Positions 11,477 through 45,430 of a stretch of 64,000 nt of DNA are shown here, piece after piece. A program made the position numbers and the translations under genes. The notes under the pieces were generated by a model. It saw only the letters and a program-made list of their open reading frames with translations, ran no database searches and was not told where the DNA came from. The DNA comes from Pseudonocardia sp. (GTDB taxonomy: Bacteria > Actinomycetota > Actinomycetes > Mycobacteriales > Pseudonocardiaceae), in NCBI GenBank assembly GCA_025869365.1, contig JAOZVV010000016.1, positions 1 through 64,000 on the forward strand. Reading direction: 5' to 3'. The number at the start of each line of letters is the position of its first letter. Position 1 is the first letter of the stretch.

Positions 11477-11534
11477 AGCGCTGCCGTACGCTCGTTTTCT
11501 GACACGGCGTCACGAAAACGTGCGGAGGCAACCG

Positions 11535-12191
11535 GTGAGCGACCTTTCCCCGCTGTCCCAGGCCCTGCGTTCCTCCACCCGCGCGGCGCACGAACGCGCG
11601 CACCACTCGTCCTACATGGACGAGCTGCTGGGCGGCCGCCTGCCCCTGGACGCCTACGCCCTGCTCGCCGAGCAGTACTGGGTGCTCTACGGCGCCCTGG
11701 AGGCGGCGACCGACGCGATGCGGACGGATCCGGTCGGCCGCCCCTTCGTCATCGACGAGCTACGCCGGGTACCCGCGCTACGCGCGGACCTGGAGTTCCT
11801 CCGCGGGCCGGGCTGGGAGCAGCGGCTCACCGTCCTGCCCGCCACCCAGGCCTACGCGGACCGGCTGCGCACCGCGGGCACCACGTCCGCGGCCGTGCAC
11901 GTCGCGCACCACTACACGCGCTACCTGGGCGATCTCGCCGGCGGCCAGATGGTGGGCAAGCTCCTCGAGCGCACCTACGGGATCACCGGCGCCGGCGCGC
12001 TGTTCTACGACTTCGCCGCACTCGGCAGCCCGTCGGCGTTCCGCACCCGCTACCGCGAGCTGCTGGACACCGCGCCGTTCGACGAGCTCGCCCGCCAGCA
12101 GGTCACGGACGAGGCACTGCACGCGTTCGAGCTGAACATCGCCCTGCTCGACGAGCTGGCCTCGGCCGTCGGGCTCCCGGTCGCCGCCTAG
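11535..12191 (+). CDS. hmuO: Haem oxygenase
   Basis: A 218-residue biliverdin-producing haem oxygenase: it opens haem to biliverdin, CO and Fe(II) with electrons from a reductase partner, releasing iron in the cytoplasm. The proximal ligand is His19 in STRAAHERAH; the distal helix YTRYLGDLAGGQ carries the flexible glycines that cover haem. Length and motifs match HmuO of corynebacteria. GTG at 11535 has GGAGG seven bases upstream; a GTG at 11520 is too far upstream. A strong hairpin follows. The iron box at 11458 suggests induction under iron shortage. No haem uptake genes lie nearby. Confidence 0.95.
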   Translation: MSDLSPLSQALRSSTRAAHERAHHSSYMDELLGGRLPLDAYALLAEQYWVLYGALEAATDAMRTDPVGRPFVIDELRRVPALRADLEFLRGPGWEQRLTVLPATQAYADRLRTAGTTSAAVHVAHHYTRYLGDLAGGQMVGKLLERTYGITGAGALFYDFAALGSPSAFRTRYRELLDTAPFDELARQQVTDEALHAFELNIALLDELASAVGLPVAA

Positions 12192-36886: not shown

Positions 36887-36928
36887 GCCGATGTGTCCGG
36901 TCGCCGTCACCGGCCCCAGGAGGCTCCG

Positions 36929-38490
36929 ATGCCCGCGAGGCTGCGAGACCTGGTCGCGGACCGCACCCTCGGGATCCGGGCCGCGTGTCCCGCCGCAGAT
37001 CTGGAACGACCCATCGCCTGGGTGCACAGCAGCGAGCTCCCGGACCCCACCCCGTACCTGGACGGCGGCGAGCTGCTGCTGACGACCGGGCTCGTGTTCA
37101 CGGGACACGAGGACACCGCCGCGTACGTGGAACGGCTCGCCCGGCACGAACTCGCCGGGCTGGGATTCGGCACCGGGCTGGGCCATACCGCGATCCCCGC
37201 GGAGCTCGTGGAGGCCTGCGCGCGGCACCGGCTGCCACTGCTGGAGATCCCCGAGCGGACGCCGTTCATCGCGATCACCAAGGCCGTGTCCTCGGCTCTG
37301 GCGGCGGACGCCTATGCCGACGTCGTCCGCACGGACGAGGCCCGGCGGGCGCTCACCTCGGCCGCACTGGGCCGGGCCGGGACGACCGGGGTGCTGCGCC
37401 GCCTCGCGGACCGCCTCGACGCCTGGGCCCTGGTCGTCGACGTGCACGACGCCGTCCGGCACGCCGCGCCACGCGGGGCCGGGCGGCACGCGGCCGGGCT
37501 GCGCCGGGAGATCGACCAGGTCCGCGGGCACCGGGGGCCCACGAGCGTGACGGTCGCCGGGAACGGCGGCCAGGTCGTCCTCCAGCCGGTCCGCCTGCCC
37601 GCACCCGGGGTCCTCGCGGTCGGCCGCGCCGAGCCGTTCTCACCGGTGGACCGGCAGGTGATCGGTGCGGCGGTGTCCGTCCTGACCCTGTTGCACAGCC
37701 GGACGACGGCGGTGGGTCGCGCGGAGCGCCGCCTGCGCACCTCCCTGTTCACGCTGATGCTGGACCCCGCCGGCACCGACGCCGCGGACATCGCCGCGGA
37801 CCTGTGGGGGCGCCTGCCCGGCCGTGGATCCAGGATCGTCCTGCTGCGCCGCCCGGGCGCCGCGGACGATCTCCTCGACGCGCTGGAGAGCCTCGGCGAG
37901 CGGCCCGGCCGCTGTTCTTCGCCGCGCACGGCGCACACGGCACCTCCCGGGGCGACACGGTCGTCGTGCTCGTCGGCCCCGAGGCCGAGGAGCCGGTCCT
38001 CGCCCTGGCCGGCCGCCTCGGCGGGACCCGGGCGGGGGTGTCGGACCCGCTCGCCCCGGAGGGAGGGCGGGACCCGGCCGGGGCGGCGGACCTGCGGACC
38101 GGGCTGCACCAGGCCGACCGGGCGCTCGACGCCGCCCGCCGGCAGGGGCGCCCGATGGTCCGCTTCGCCGAGCTGGCGGGGCAGGGGCTGCACGACCTCG
38201 TCCCGGCCGCGGACGCCGCCGGGTTCGCCGAGTCCCTGCTGCGCCCGCTGGTGCGGCACGACGCCCGGCGGCGCGGCGAGCTGGTCCGCTCCGTGCGGGA
38301 GTGGCTCGCCCACCACGGCCAGTGGGACCCCGCGGCGAGCGCGCTGGGCGTCCACCGGCACACCCTGCGGGCGCGGATCGACAGGGCCGCCCGGCTCCTC
38401 GGCCGGGACCTGGACTCACCGGGGGTGCGGGCGGAGCTGTGGTTCGCCCTCCAGGTGCCGCGGCAGGTCGGCTCCCCGGAGCCCGGCTGA
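36929..38490 (+). pseudogene. PucR family regulator, frameshifted
   Basis: PucR-type activators of purine or heterocycle catabolism have an N-terminal PucR sensory domain and a C-terminal helix-turn-helix. From ATG 36929 (CAGGAGG upstream) the frame reads a good PucR domain (RLRDLVADRTLGIRAACPAA, LLLTTGLVF, LPLLEIPERTPF) to LGERPGR near 37910; then the homology moves to the next frame (LFFAAHGAHGTSRGDTVVVL and the HTH region WDPAASALGVHRHTLRARID) to a stop at 38490. One missing C in CGC(C)TGTTC at about 37912 explains it. Read on, the first frame gives a non-family tail. Either a real loss of function or a sequencing error. It is divergent from the coxL-like operon, its likely target. Confidence 0.82.
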
Positions 38491-38496
38491 GCGAGG

Positions 38497-38847
38497 TCAG
38501 GCCATCCGGGAGTCCTGCCCCGGGTGGGCGGGGAAGAGCACGCCCGCCCCGGTGGTCTCCAGCACCCGCTGCAGCGCGCCCTGCACGCCGCGCAGGACGA
38601 CGCTCCCGCCCCGCCGTGCCGCGCGGCGTTGCACGCCGATGATCGTGGCGAGGCCGGCCGAGTCGCAGAAGGTGAGGTCCGAGACGTCGAGCTCGAGATC
38701 GGGACCGTCGGTCTCCGGGATCGACCGGACCCGGCGCTCGAGGGCGGGCGCGGAATGGTGGCTCAGCTCGCCGCGCAGGACGACCCGCACGCACCCGTCA
38801 CCGGTGGTGAGCTCGATCCGCAGCGGCTGCTCCGAGCGCCCGCTCAC
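38497..38847 (-). CDS. STAS domain anti-sigma factor antagonist
   Basis: A 116-residue SpoIIAA/RsbV-like protein. The phosphorylation site is Ser63 in LTFCDSAGLATI, the canonical DSxGL motif. When unphosphorylated such proteins bind the anti-sigma kinase and free the sigma factor; PP2C phosphatases reactivate them. GTG at 38847 overlaps the stop of the B12-binding gene (GTGA), and that gene in turn overlaps a PP2C phosphatase: a linear signalling operon. The anti-sigma kinase partner is not in the operon; a fused STAS-HATPase protein is at 56767. Confidence 0.9.
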   Translation of the reverse strand: MSGRSEQPLRIELTTGDGCVRVVLRGELSHHSAPALERRVRSIPETDGPDLELDVSDLTFCDSAGLATIIGVQRRAARRGGSVVLRGVQGALQRVLETTGAGVLFPAHPGQDSRMA

Positions 38848-39863
38848 GACGCGCTCCGGGCCGCGCCGGCCAGCTGGGCGCCGCCGCGCGCCAGCGTGTC
38901 CTGGGCGAACGGGAAGTCGTGCAGGCCCGAACGGAACTCGTCCAGGACGGCCGCGAGGGCGTCGGTGCGCGCCGAACGGGAGTCCAGGACGTCCCGCAGC
39001 CAGCTCAGGTAACCGGTGAACACGTCCGGATCGCCCAGGTAGACCGCGGCGGAGAGGAAGTCCACCGCCTGCCCGAGATCGTCCTCGAGGCCCGCGTCCA
39101 CCCCGGCCCCGCCGCCGAGCCGGTACCCGTCCCCGAGCCGCGCGCCGGCGGCCGCGACCAGGGACGATCGCCTGGACCGCAGGCCCGCGTACTCGGGTCC
39201 GGCGTCCTCGCCGAGCTCCGGCACGGGCTCCGGCCACGGGAGCCGGTCCAGCAGGGTGACCGCCTCGGCCGCGTTCGGCGCCCACGCGTCGACGCCGAGC
39301 CGCCGCGCCCACCGGCCGTCCGCGCCGAAGCCCGGGCCGCCGGCGAGCACCGGTGTCCCCGTCCGCTGCGCGGCGACGATCGTCCGGTGCGCCGCGGGCA
39401 GGTGCACCGGCAGCGCGCAGCTCACGGCGACGACGTCCGGGCCCTGTTGGTGCAGGTAGGACACGAGCTGGGCGGCCGGGACGCTCGCCCCGAGGAAGGT
39501 CACCTGCCAGCCCGAGAGCCGGAGCACCTCGGCCACGAGCCGGGCGGGCAGCGCGTGCCACTCGCCGTCGAGGCAGGCCAGCACGACGTGCCCCTTCTCG
39601 CCGGTCCCCCGGGTGCGGCGGGCTACCGCGGCGACCACCCGCTCGTTGACGGCGGTCGCCGCGTGCTCCTGGGCCACGTTCCACTCCCCGGACTGCCAGC
39701 GGAGCCCGACCTGTTCCTGGGTGCGCGCGACCAGGCCCAGCAGCACGTCCTGCGCGGGGACCCCGTCGTCCAGCAGGTCCTGGGCGAGCCCGACGGCGGC
39801 GGTCTCGTCCGCCCGGCCCAGCGCCTCGAGGAAGGGCGCCAGCACCGCGTCGAGCCGGTTCAC
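38844..39863 (-). CDS. B12-binding protein with CarH-like photosensory signature
   Basis: A 339-residue protein. Residues 1-90 form the four-helix cap and about 92-215 the Rossmann B12-binding domain of the MetH/CarH type. Trp56, Glu66 and His67 give the W-x9-EH motif that in CarH marks the adenosylcobalamin light-sensing cap, and His103 in GEWHALP sits at the lower-ligand position (CarH His177), although the final Gly of ExHxxG is Pro106. There is no MerR DNA-binding domain; instead a C-terminal helical region (215-339, containing YLGDPDVFTGYLSWLRDVL) of unknown role. Coupled by overlaps to a PP2C phosphatase upstream and a STAS protein downstream, so it probably passes a light or cobalamin signal to partner switching. 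Confidence 0.85.
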   Translation of the reverse strand: MNRLDAVLAPFLEALGRADETAAVGLAQDLLDDGVPAQDVLLGLVARTQEQVGLRWQSGEWNVAQEHAATAVNERVVAAVARRTRGTGEKGHVVLACLDGEWHALPARLVAEVLRLSGWQVTFLGASVPAAQLVSYLHQQGPDVVAVSCALPVHLPAAHRTIVAAQRTGTPVLAGGPGFGADGRWARRLGVDAWAPNAAEAVTLLDRLPWPEPVPELGEDAGPEYAGLRSRRSSLVAAAGARLGDGYRLGGGAGVDAGLEDDLGQAVDFLSAAVYLGDPDVFTGYLSWLRDVLDSRSARTDALAAVLDEFRSGLHDFPFAQDTLARGGAQLAGAARSAS

Positions 39864-41593
39864 GGGCCCACCTCCGGGGCGACGTCGTCCGGGGTCCGGA
39901 CGGAGTGCAGGTGCCGGCCCACCGCGACCGGGTCCGGGGCGGTCGGCACGCCGGGGGCGCGGACCACGAGGACCGCGATGTCGTCGTGCGCACCGGAGGA
40001 CAGCCAGCGCACGGCGTGCTGCTCGATCCGCTCCGCGATCGCCTGGGCGGGCATCAGGTGCCCGTCCACGAGCAGCTGCGCCAGACGCTCCTCGCCGAGG
40101 ACCTCGAGGCCGTCCGTGCCGCCGCGGGCCTCGACGACGCCGTCGGTGTAGAGGACGCAGGACTCACCGGGCGCCAGGTCCACGGTGCACGCCTCGAACC
40201 GGGCCGCCGGCACCGCGCCGACGAGCATCCCGCCGATCTCGATCTCCTCGACGCCGTCGCGGCGCAGCACCAGCGGCGGGAGGTGGCCGCCCCCGGCCAG
40301 CTGCAGCCGCACCCCGCCGTCGTCGCGCGGCGTGGCGCTGCCGAGCACCATCGTGGCGAAGGCGGGGGCCGCGTCGGGGTCCGAGCCGTCCAGCATCGTG
40401 TCGTTGAGCAGGCGCAACAGGGCGACGGGATCGCGTTCGACCCGGCGCAGCGCCTGCACCGAGTGCCGCAGCCGGCCGGTGCTGACCGCCGCGTGCACGC
40501 CCTTCCCGCAGACGTCCCCGAGCACGAACGTCGCGGAGCCGCCTGCCGGGTCCACGTGCACGTCGTAGAAGTCCCCGCCGATCAGCAGGCCCTCCTCGGC
40601 GGGCCGGTACGCGGCGCCGAAGGTCATCCCGCGGACCTCGGGCAGCTCGGGCTGCTGCAGGCTGCGCTTGAGGACCGCGGCCGTGCCCGCCTGCGCGGCG
40701 TAGAGCGCGGCGGCCGCCAGGGCGAGCCCGGCGCGCTGGGAGAACTCCTCGGTCAGGGCCGTGTCGACGACGTCCGCCATGACCTCGTCGACCTCGCGGC
40801 GCAGCAGGACCAGCGCCCCGGCGGGGTGCCCGTTCCCGGGCAGCGTGACGATCGCCGCGGCGGCGGCGGAGCCCAGCCGCGCCGCCCACGGCTGCCCCGC
40901 GAGGTCCTCGGCCAGCATCGGCCGCGATCCGGTGGCGGCGCCGGCGAGCGCGTCCCGCAGCTCCTGCGGCATCGCGGCGAGATCCGCGGACCCGGTCCAC
41001 GGACGCGCCTCCCGGGCGCAGGCGAACCACTCGGACTCCCCTGCCCGGCCGGGCAGGACGACGACCGCCCCGTCCGCGAGCCGCTCGGACGCGAGCTCGA
41101 CGACCGCCTTGGCCGTGCGCCCCGGGTGCAGGGACAGGCCGAGCCGGCGGCTGGCGGCGGCGAGGAAGCGCGAGCGGGCCCGTTCGGCCAGGAGGGTGTC
41201 CAGGCGCTGGTGGGCGTCGGTGACGTCCGTGACGTGCCAGGCGAGCCACCCGTCGGCCAGCTCCTGGCGGCGGGCGGTGAGCCGGCGCCCGCCGAGGGTC
41301 AGCTCGGGGTCCCGGGGCCCGGCCGCCAGGGCCGCGAGCTCGGGCGGGAGGAGCTCGCCCACCCGCACCCCGGGGAGCATCCGCAGGGCGGCCTCGTTCG
41401 CCGAGCGGACGATCCCGCCCGGGTCGCGCGCGAGCATCCCGGTGGCCGAGCCGTCGAGCAGGCGCCCGGCCAGGGAGCGGTCCCGCTCCGGTGCGGCTGG
41501 GGCGGACGGCACGGCGGACGGGGCGTCGACGACCCCACCGCCGAGGTCCGCCCCGGCACGTCCGATGTCCGCGTCCTTGCTCGAGATGACCAA
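39860..41593 (-). CDS. PAS/GAF-containing PP2C (SpoIIE/RsbU) phosphatase
   Basis: About 577 residues. An N-terminal PAS-like domain (GRLLDGSATGMLARDPGGIV, RSANEAALRMLPG), a GAF-like domain in the middle (FLAAASRRLGLSLHPG onward), then a PP2C phosphatase domain in the last 230 residues with metal-binding GGDFYDVH, LGDVCGKGVHAAV, YTDGVVEARG and SGAHDDIAVLV. It would dephosphorylate a STAS antagonist, probably the one at 38497. The start is unclear: a TTG at 41593 has GGAAGGG in front; longer starts reach 41698. The stop overlaps the B12-protein start as GTGA. Confidence 0.88.
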   Translation of the reverse strand: MVISSKDADIGRAGADLGGGVVDAPSAVPSAPAAPERDRSLAGRLLDGSATGMLARDPGGIVRSANEAALRMLPGVRVGELLPPELAALAAGPRDPELTLGGRRLTARRQELADGWLAWHVTDVTDAHQRLDTLLAERARSRFLAAASRRLGLSLHPGRTAKAVVELASERLADGAVVVLPGRAGESEWFACAREARPWTGSADLAAMPQELRDALAGAATGSRPMLAEDLAGQPWAARLGSAAAAAIVTLPGNGHPAGALVLLRREVDEVMADVVDTALTEEFSQRAGLALAAAALYAAQAGTAAVLKRSLQQPELPEVRGMTFGAAYRPAEEGLLIGGDFYDVHVDPAGGSATFVLGDVCGKGVHAAVSTGRLRHSVQALRRVERDPVALLRLLNDTMLDGSDPDAAPAFATMVLGSATPRDDGGVRLQLAGGGHLPPLVLRRDGVEEIEIGGMLVGAVPAARFEACTVDLAPGESCVLYTDGVVEARGGTDGLEVLGEERLAQLLVDGHLMPAQAIAERIEQHAVRWLSSGAHDDIAVLVVRAPGVPTAPDPVAVGRHLHSVRTPDDVAPEVGP

Positions 41594-43672: not shown

Positions 43673-45430
43673 ATGCGCGCGGTGCGGATCGGCAACTTCT
43701 CGGGATATCTGGGCGACCGGTACACGGCGATCGACGAGGCCCTCGCCGGCGATCCGGTGGACGTCCTGATGGGCGACTACCTGGCCGAGGTCACCCTCGC
43801 CGCGCTGGCCGCGGGCGCACGGCGGCACGCCGCGGGCGGGTACGTCAGCTACTTCCTCGACCAGCTCCGGCCCCACCTCGCGACGATCGCCGAACGCGGC
43901 ATCAAGATCGTGAGCAACGCGGGCGGGTTCAACCCGGCCGGCCTGGCCACGGCGCTGCGGGCGATGATCGCCGAGGCCGGGGTGTCGCTCACGGTGGCGC
44001 ACGTCGAGGGGGACAACGTCCTCGACGAGCTCGCGACCTACCACGCCGAGGGCCACGGCATGGAGCACCTGGACACGGGCGCCCCGCTCAAGGACTGGGG
44101 CGTGGATCCGATCGCGGCCAACGCCTACCTCGGCGGGTTCGGCATCGCCGAGGCGCTGAAGGCCGGTGCGGACATCGTCGTCACCGGGCGGGTCACGGAC
44201 GCCTCGCTCACCGCGGGACCCGCGGCGTGGTGGCACGGCTGGACCCCGGACGACTTCGGCCCGCTCGCCGGCGCCGTCACCGCGGGCCACATCATCGAGT
44301 GCGGCGCCCACGCCACCGGCGGCAACTTCTCCGGCTTCCTCACCGTGCCGGGCATGGTGAAGTGCGGCTTCCCGATCGCGGAGGTCGCCGCGGACGGCAG
44401 CAGCGTGATCACCAAGCACGCCCGCGACGGCGGCATGGTCACCGTGGACACCGTCACCGCCCAGCTCGTCTACGAGATCCAGGGTCCGCGCTACCTCAAC
44501 CCGGACGCGACGGTGCACCTGGACACCGTGACCCTCACCCAGGTCGGGAAGGACCGGGTCGCGATCGCGCCGGTGACGGGCTCCGCTCCCCCGCCGACGG
44601 CCAAGATCGCGGTGTTCGCGCGGATCGGCTACGAGATCTCGCAGATGCTGTTCTGCACCGCCCCGAACGTCACCGAGAAGGCAGCGCTGCTGCGGGACCA
44701 GCTGCGCGCCCAGCTCGAGGGCCACGTCGACGAGCTGGACGTGACGGCCCTCGGGGTGGCCGCGGAGAACCCTGCCTCCCAGTCCGAGGCGACGGTCGGG
44801 ATCCGGGTGATGGCCACCGCGCGCGATCCCGAGCCGCTGCGCCGCTTCCCCGCCGCGGTGGGCAGCCTCTACCTGCAGGGCTTCCCGGGCTTCTTCCACG
44901 ACGGGCACGCGCAGCGGGTGAGCGAACCGTGGGCGCGGATCGACTACTGGCCCGCGCTGCTGCCGGCCGAGCTCGTGCCGCACCGGGCCGTGCTGGAGGA
45001 CGGGACGGTGCTGGAGGCCCCGGTGCCGTCGTCCACGTCCGCCGAGCCGCAGCCGGTCCAGCCCGAGCCGCCGGCGCCGCCGTCGGTGGGTGGGAGGCAG
45101 GTCCCGCTCGGGACACTCGCCTACGCCCGCAGCGGGGACAAGGGCGGGAACTCCAACATCGGGATCTGGGTGCCGGACCCCGGGGCCTGGGAGTGGCTGC
45201 GCACGACCCTGTCCACCGAGGGGATCCGCGCGCTGATCCCGGAGGCGAAGGGCTGCGAGATCACCCGGCACGAGTTCCCGCACCTGCGGGCGGTGCACGT
45301 GGTGCTGAAGGGCCTGCTCGGGACGGGCGGCTCGTCGAACCTGCGGGTGGACCAGATGGGGAAGTCCGTGTGCGAGTACGTCCGGGCGAAGCACGTCACC
45401 GTGCCGGAGGAGCTCCTCACGGGAGCCTGA
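43673..45430 (+). CDS. AtuA family (DUF1446) acyclic terpene utilisation-like protein
   Basis: A 585-residue protein with the conserved DUF1446 core: RIGNFSGYLGDRYTAIDE, DVLMGDYLAEVTLAAL, IVSNAGGFNPAGLA and IVVTGRVTDASLTAGPAAWW, followed after a Pro/Ala linker (about residues 440-475) by the C-terminal AtuA-like ferredoxin-fold domain (LAYARSGDKGGNSNIGIW). Family members function in terpenoid (citronellol) or leucine-type acyl-CoA catabolism, but the biochemical role of AtuA is unproved. Here it stands beside a P450 gene with only 11 bases between stops, and none of the other atu genes is present. Confidence 0.88.
   Translation: MRAVRIGNFSGYLGDRYTAIDEALAGDPVDVLMGDYLAEVTLAALAAGARRHAAGGYVSYFLDQLRPHLATIAERGIKIVSNAGGFNPAGLATALRAMIAEAGVSLTVAHVEGDNVLDELATYHAEGHGMEHLDTGAPLKDWGVDPIAANAYLGGFGIAEALKAGADIVVTGRVTDASLTAGPAAWWHGWTPDDFGPLAGAVTAGHIIECGAHATGGNFSGFLTVPGMVKCGFPIAEVAADGSSVITKHARDGGMVTVDTVTAQLVYEIQGPRYLNPDATVHLDTVTLTQVGKDRVAIAPVTGSAPPPTAKIAVFARIGYEISQMLFCTAPNVTEKAALLRDQLRAQLEGHVDELDVTALGVAAENPASQSEATVGIRVMATARDPEPLRRFPAAVGSLYLQGFPGFFHDGHAQRVSEPWARIDYWPALLPAELVPHRAVLEDGTVLEAPVPSSTSAEPQPVQPEPPAPPSVGGRQVPLGTLAYARSGDKGGNSNIGIWVPDPGAWEWLRTTLSTEGIRALIPEAKGCEITRHEFPHLRAVHVVLKGLLGTGGSSNLRVDQMGKSVCEYVRAKHVTVPEELLTGA

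Follow-up and report, generated by a model that had tools for sequence, protein, structure and literature searches.

Three adjoining genes of Pseudonocardia sp. lie on the minus strand of contig JAOZVV010000016.1 (assembly GCA_025869365.1), within its first 64,000 nucleotides, and we call this whole stretch of analysed DNA the window. The genes form an operon that runs from 41593 to 38497 and encodes, in order, a phosphatase of 577 residues, a B12 protein of 339 and a STAS protein of 116. Pfam places a SpoIIE-type PP2C domain in the first, B12-binding_2 and B12-binding domains in the second and a STAS domain in the third. At both junctions, phosphatase to B12 protein and B12 protein to STAS, the start of the next gene lies over the stop of the preceding one in a four-base overlap that reads GTGA. 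We propose that the middle protein, judged by sequence and model, is a photocobilin and that the operon is probably a light-gated partner switch. The features are collected in Table 1.

In a phmmer comparison of the middle protein with every protein of solved structure, the two entries of SasPcob, a standalone photocobilin from Saccharothrix syringae (8j2x, E 2.6e-91; 8j2w, E 2.8e-91), scored best, and their matches span query residues 11-332. AbPcob (8j2y, E 5.6e-47) ranked second, and the match to CarH was restricted to residues 11-194 (E about 2e-6). An AlphaFold model made with 40 sequences has a mean predicted local distance difference test score (pLDDT) of 92.9 and a predicted template modelling score (pTM) of 0.89. 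Foldseek aligned it with 8j2x over 338 columns, with a template modelling (TM) score of 0.88 by query length and 0.89 by target length, and with 8j2y, here the photoreceptor part of AbDPcob, at a TM score of 0.83 and 34% identity. The alignment with CarH (5c8e_D) covered 211 columns, with TM scores of 0.85 by target length and 0.54 by query length. The predicted layout is an N-terminal four-helix bundle, a B12-binding Rossmann domain to about residue 205 and a C-terminal photoglobin domain at about residues 222-338. Because SasPcob matches the whole length by sequence and by fold, and CarH the first part alone, we assign the middle protein as a photocobilin, in which a predicted bilin-binding globin domain comes after a CarH-like B12 domain. 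By homology, adenosylcobalamin (AdoCbl) plus biliverdin should be its sensing cofactors.

An earlier note on this DNA, made from the letters alone, had called the middle protein a CarH-like B12 photosensor without a DNA-binding domain. The AdoCbl photosensor part of that reading is well supported by sequence, and the note described the B12 half correctly; CarH is the wrong family, and about 120 C-terminal residues, those of the photoglobin domain, had gone unmentioned. The missing DNA-binding domain is confirmed: the protein begins in the B12 four-helix domain, with no N-terminal MerR-type DNA-binding domain. We rejected membership of the CarH/LitR family on the short CarH match, the NCBIfam score for CarH (48.9 bits against a cut-off of 400) and the absence of His at the CarH His132 position. 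A corrinoid methyltransferase partner was rejected as well, since its NCBIfam matches lie far under their cut-offs. The presence of corrinoid protein MtgC and CarH models among the NCBIfam matches is what speaks for a B12 protein of CarH or corrinoid methyltransferase type, unrelated to photocobilins. However, MtgC reaches 51.7 bits against a cut-off of 310, both models omit the C-terminal domain, and the SasPcob matches in sequence and model span the full length. These matches refute such a reading, and we give it almost no credence.

The residues expected around the chromophores support the photocobilin assignment. SasPcob residue numbers (PMC10979010) were mapped onto the window protein through the phmmer alignment, and conservation was counted in an alignment of 81 proteins, the window protein plus those of the 80 best genome_contigs loci. 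Trp61 of SasPcob corresponds to W56, Glu71-His72 to E66-H67, His108 to H103, Asp270 to D262, Trp296 to W288 and His137 to Q132. The adenosyl-pocket Trp, the Glu-His pair and the ligand His were all retained in 81/81 proteins, and the biliverdin-binding Asp and Trp in 80/81 each. W56, E66-H67 and H103 stand where the earlier note had located them, and its W-x9-EH signature is no chance motif, being kept in the homologues together with the ligand His. The ligand motif E/DxH is present as E101-W-H103. The position of CarH His132, which we take to be the bis-His light-state site (H132A variants are named in PDB titles), is Gln57 in the window protein, and it is Ala, Gln or Glu across all 81 proteins and never His. 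All four motifs proposed by SignatureFinder for light-responsive B12 domains, GxxW, EH, GxxH and GxxxP (PMC11796333), were found in the window protein. AbPcob has a His in place of the biliverdin Asp and binds biliverdin weakly, as described in PMC10979010; the window protein has Asp, as SasPcob does and unlike AbPcob.

The flanking genes encode two proteins of the partner-switching type. The closest solved relative of the phosphatase is the RsbU domain of Rv1364c. Its AlphaFold model (pLDDT 87.9) has two alpha/beta sensor modules ahead of the PP2C domain, and the PP2C half of the model is nearest to Rv1364c RsbU, SiaA and RssB. Residues D340, D359, D483 and D536-D537, presumably the metal-site Asp residues of the PP2C family, are invariant in the 41/41 aligned sequences. 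The earlier note had named this protein PAS/GAF-PP2C. The PP2C domain is secure by PF07228, and the PAS/GAF part is weaker: Pfam gives only a sub-threshold PAS_8 match, a profile match points to the DevS GAF domain, and phytochrome PAS-GAF structures align loosely and at lower rank (root-mean-square deviation about 16-27 A, TM below 0.3 by query length). The third protein was correctly recognized as a STAS antagonist with a DSAGL motif. It matches PF13466 and TIGR00377, its closest solved relatives are SpoIIAA and RsbV-type antagonists, and the Ser of DSxG is retained in 53/54 aligned STAS proteins.

Gene order among relatives points to the phosphatase as the constant partner. The genome_contigs scan found at least 576 photocobilin relatives, of which the best 80 were kept; these are the closest loci, not a random sample, and divergent genes may escape the PP2C, STAS and photocobilin models, for which proteins of the window itself served as seeds. 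A PP2C catalytic-domain match lay directly upstream on the same strand in 80/80 loci, and the sensor part was also detected in 79, the remaining locus being cut by a contig end. A start codon with a four-base overlap of the PP2C stop was available in 62/80 loci, which is an upper bound because the start nearest the upstream stop was taken. A STAS gene followed on the same strand in 53/80 loci, within 152 bases in 52 of them. The earlier note had treated the three genes as a coupled set. Both four-base overlaps are as it described them, and conservation of the set holds for the upstream PP2C gene throughout the 80 loci and for a close downstream STAS gene in the 52 only.

A sample of genomes from the class gave a similar picture for the phosphatase. 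A photocobilin match with E <= 1e-30 occurred in 66/394 genomes and 27/138 genera. Among the 73 matches outside the window's own genome, 56 come right after a phosphatase match on their own strand, no more than 400 bases away; this is a lower bound, as phosphatase matches were listed at E <= 1e-25. The 17 others comprise two tandem second copies (L209, L210), the second half of a split match, one locus whose PP2C was found later by Pfam (L202), one apparent deletion remnant (L204), one contig edge (L195) and 11 in which our models gave no PP2C. With the split match merged, the total is 72 genes, and PP2C lies directly upstream of at least 57 of these, plus the two tandem second copies. STAS adjoined the photocobilin in at least four cases (G049, G189, G252, G434), with 52 of 65 genomes searched. 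Within the window's genus the photocobilin system is patchy, because a match with E <= 1e-50 was found in 8/35 genomes.

Two other arrangements were seen. In L209 (1857-6046) and L210 (1670-5793), two tandem photocobilin genes lie between PP2C and STAS, a possible heterodimeric or two-receptor version. In L044 (G031:C76) and L204 (G317:C1), truncated photocobilin copies lie beside PP2C pieces and resemble deletion remnants.

Some relatives carry a kinase gene as well. In 3/31 loci examined, two from the window's genus (L039, L040) and one from another family of the class (L202), the gene immediately before PP2C on its strand is a HATPase_c_2 gene. An upstream STAS gene scores over the Pfam cut-off in L202 and just under it in L039 (28.2 vs 29.2 bits). 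In L202 the kinase stop and a possible PP2C start share the sequence GTGA, and the order STAS-HATPase-PP2C-photocobilin resembles the rsbS-rsbT-rsbU order of Bacillus. As read from predicted genes, the kinase-bearing loci are the best genetic evidence that photocobilins may feed partner switching. Elsewhere in the window's genome there are 36 HATPase_c_2 matches, 21 of them over the cut-off, which may include ordinary histidine kinases, and three SigB/F/G-type sigma factors over the cut-off, none tied to the operon. A HATPase gene and a SigB/F/G-type sigma gene form a pair on contig C58 (C58:2586-2888 and C58:3035-3703).

These kinase genes also bear on the question of what the photocobilin touches. 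It could act on the STAS protein or the kinase instead of PP2C, like the RsbR-type globin-STAS sensors of stressosomes. Photoglobins are treated as homologues of the RsbR globin domain in PMC10151467, and same-strand HATPase genes stand beside the photocobilin in 4/31 loci (L039, L040, L198, L202), L198 having no PP2C match. However, every one of the 80 closest loci has PP2C as a partner, whereas a close STAS gene is present in 52 of them. Moreover, no same-strand kinase was found in these 80 loci with a kinase model built from nine sequences of the window's own genome, which divergent genes may escape; two kinase matches (L074, L078) lie on the other strand. The same caveat holds for the sigma model, made from five such sequences. 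We consider direct action on STAS or the kinase unlikely. As PP2C is the constant neighbour and STAS is exchangeable, PP2C is the more likely direct target of the photocobilin.

Table 1. Features of the operon, of related loci and of chromophore supply; positions are those of the window unless a locus is named.
Feature	Position	Strand	Basis
PAS-GAF-PP2C (SpoIIE/RsbU-type) serine phosphatase	39860..41593	-	PF07228 E 8.2e-40; TTG start proposed
Photocobilin (by sequence and model)	38844..39863	-	phmmer to 8j2x/8j2w; model pLDDT 92.9, Foldseek TM by query length 0.88 to 8j2x
W56-x9-E66-H67 adenosyl-pocket motif	39663..39698	-	sequence; W, E, H kept in 81/81 aligned proteins
His103, predicted lower axial cobalt ligand (= SasPcob His108)	39555..39557	-	alignment to 8j2w; 81/81
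Asp262, predicted biliverdin-binding Asp (= SasPcob Asp270)	39078..39080	-	phmmer alignment, PMC10979010 numbering; 80/81
Trp288, predicted biliverdin D-ring Trp (= SasPcob Trp296)	39000..39002	-	80/81; 25/25 in diverse alignment A2
STAS anti-sigma-factor-antagonist-like protein with DSAGL	38497..38847	-	PF13466 E 4.7e-18; TIGR00377 over cut-off
Heme oxygenase, outside the operon	11520..12191	+	genome's only PF01126 match; possible biliverdin source
HATPase_c_2 + PP2C + photocobilin runs	L039 1692-7113; L040 4010-7577; L202 2002-5639

Based on these data and on published photochemistry, we propose a model for the operon. SasPcob is photoactive by experiment: it is a head-to-tail dimer in darkness, its Co-C bond is cleaved when AdoCbl absorbs green light or biliverdin absorbs red light, and it is monomeric in its light state (PMC10979010). 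Acting in trans, photocobilins also change how active a separate enzyme is, as the same source describes. In the dark, the window photocobilin would hold AdoCbl through His103, together with biliverdin, as a head-to-tail dimer. Green light via AdoCbl or red light via biliverdin would then cleave the Co-C bond, release the adenosyl group and break the dimer, as in SasPcob. The changed photocobilin would act on the co-translated PAS-GAF-PP2C phosphatase, probably via its N-terminal sensor half, and the phosphatase would in turn set how far the STAS protein is phosphorylated on its DSAGL Ser. Finally, the STAS protein may bind or release an anti-sigma kinase encoded elsewhere, so that a sigma factor is freed or held, or it may serve another client. 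Light may raise or lower this output. Light-gated partner switching, which we regard as a well-supported model, draws on the protein family, the domain architecture, the key residues and the conserved order of genes; the cobalamin adenosyltransferase and heme oxygenase genes of the genome also speak for it.

It is also conceivable that the photocobilin senses cobalamin availability, through its apo and AdoCbl-bound forms, and controls the phosphatase without light. In AbDPcob, AdoCbl binding alone reduced enzyme activity relative to the apo form (PMC10979010), and a strong PF01126 match is absent from half of the class-sample genomes that carry a photocobilin. Yet the adenosyl residues of the dimer interface, W and E-H, are kept in 81/81 proteins and the biliverdin Asp in 80/81, which fits photochemistry, and the experimental photoactivity of SasPcob reported in PMC10979010 points the same way. 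We think control by cobalamin alone quite improbable, more so than a direct action on STAS or the kinase.

Several observations weigh against light-gated partner switching by this operon or against its generality. At the position of SasPcob His137, His is found in 77/81 proteins, and Gln132 of the window protein is the sole Gln. This His touches the biliverdin propionate from the partner monomer in SasPcob (PMC10979010); the contact is described as a feature of SasPcob, not necessarily one that defines the family. The CxQD motif given for photoglobins (PMC10151467) is not present in the window photoglobin, which reads L259-E-D-D262 there; SasPcob, as described in PMC10979010, is likewise without the Cys of this motif. 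The window operon contains no kinase, sigma or anti-sigma gene. The earlier note had suggested partner switching onto a stress sigma factor; the partner-switching context is well supported, and the stress sigma factor was supposition. A close downstream STAS gene was not found in 28/80 loci, in one of them (L106) by a contig end just past the photocobilin. The downstream open frame was scanned in 10 of these 28 loci and gave no STAS in seven; in the other three, all from Micromonospora (L076, L081, L103), a response regulator (PF00072) follows the photocobilin closely, at the position that STAS holds elsewhere. Several of the 28 have a STAS gene upstream on the opposite strand. In the class sample, 11 photocobilin genes, among the more divergent, had no PP2C match in the fetched stretch.

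The supply of biliverdin belongs with these points. Counting photocobilins and heme oxygenases as drawn from the same 394 genomes, and dropping 11/160 matching genomes as weak (E above about 1e-9), we found a strong PF01126 match in 33/66 photocobilin genomes (35 including two weak ones, G225 and G252) versus 116/328 others. The Fisher p of 0.036 for this co-occurrence is not corrected for phylogeny, and we do not use it as support. In family f8, a strong match was found in 0/10 photocobilin genomes and a weak one in 1/10; the f8 photocobilins might use another bilin or none. The biliverdin Asp is present in both f8 proteins in the alignments (L008, L174). In lineages without a PF01126 heme oxygenase the bilin site may be filled by another bilin. 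The window's genome encodes a cobalamin adenosyltransferase (PF01923, E 8.9e-60), and its heme oxygenase gene lies 26.7 kb from the operon, beside TetR- and MarR-like regulators and an ABC transporter (named by eye). A phmmer search of the sequence retrieved around the 80 loci, short for some of them, yielded no heme oxygenase homologue, and thus the proximity of the gene to the operon is probably incidental. In sum, biliverdin use is plausible for the window system and is not general from the class-sample data.

Two further genes of the window were noted. A PucR-family regulator gene adjoins the operon (36893-38490, plus strand); such a gene also occurs near the related genes in L039 (360-1556) and L040 (2687-3883), in varying position. 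An AtuA-type terpene utilisation protein is encoded at 43673-45430 on the plus strand (PF07287, E 5.1e-160).

Photocobilins and their structures were published in 2024, and the function of the standalone members is stated as less clear in PMC10979010. In a text search that paired B12 photosensing with STAS and PP2C, all terms came together only in that paper. What we add are counts of directly linked genes, conserved overlaps, an exchangeable third gene, tandem receptors and kinase-bearing variants; some of these gene-order additions may already be known. With PP2C immediately upstream in each of the 80 closest loci, standalone photocobilins have one concrete candidate partner, and what they do therefore becomes a simple biochemical question. 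We put forward, at slightly less than even chances, the broader hypothesis that actinobacterial standalone photocobilins are for the most part dedicated to feeding light signals into RsbU-type phosphatases. They would form a widespread two-colour photo-partner-switch, green through B12 and red through bilin, with the phosphatase constant and the third component, STAS or a response regulator, exchangeable. If this is true, RsbU-type signalling would commonly be under light control in soil actinobacteria, and photocobilin and PP2C together would make a compact optogenetic phosphatase switch that answers to two colours.

The module can be set beside four known systems. With RsbU-RsbV, SpoIIE-SpoIIAA and Rv1364c it shares a SpoIIE-type PP2C domain with conserved Asp residues and a STAS antagonist with its Ser; it differs from them in its photocobilin sensor and in having no RsbW/RsbT-type kinase or sigma factor in the operon. 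The CarH/LitR repressors share the B12 light-sensing core, whereas the window protein is without the MerR domain and the His at the His132 position and has an extra globin domain. AbDPcob, a photocobilin-diguanylate cyclase (8j2y), has the same photoreceptor fold; it is fused to GGDEF and has a His for the biliverdin Asp, while the window photocobilin has Asp at this site and separate output proteins. SasPcob (8j2w, 8j2x) is the closest of all. It has His137 at the position of Gln132 in the window protein, and its light response is established by experiment. SasPcob was linked to STAS/SpoIIE/PP2C by predicted interaction networks (PMC10979010, 2024), and it shares with the window protein full-length homology, the two-domain layout, the ligand His, the adenosyl-pocket W and EH, and the biliverdin Asp and Trp.

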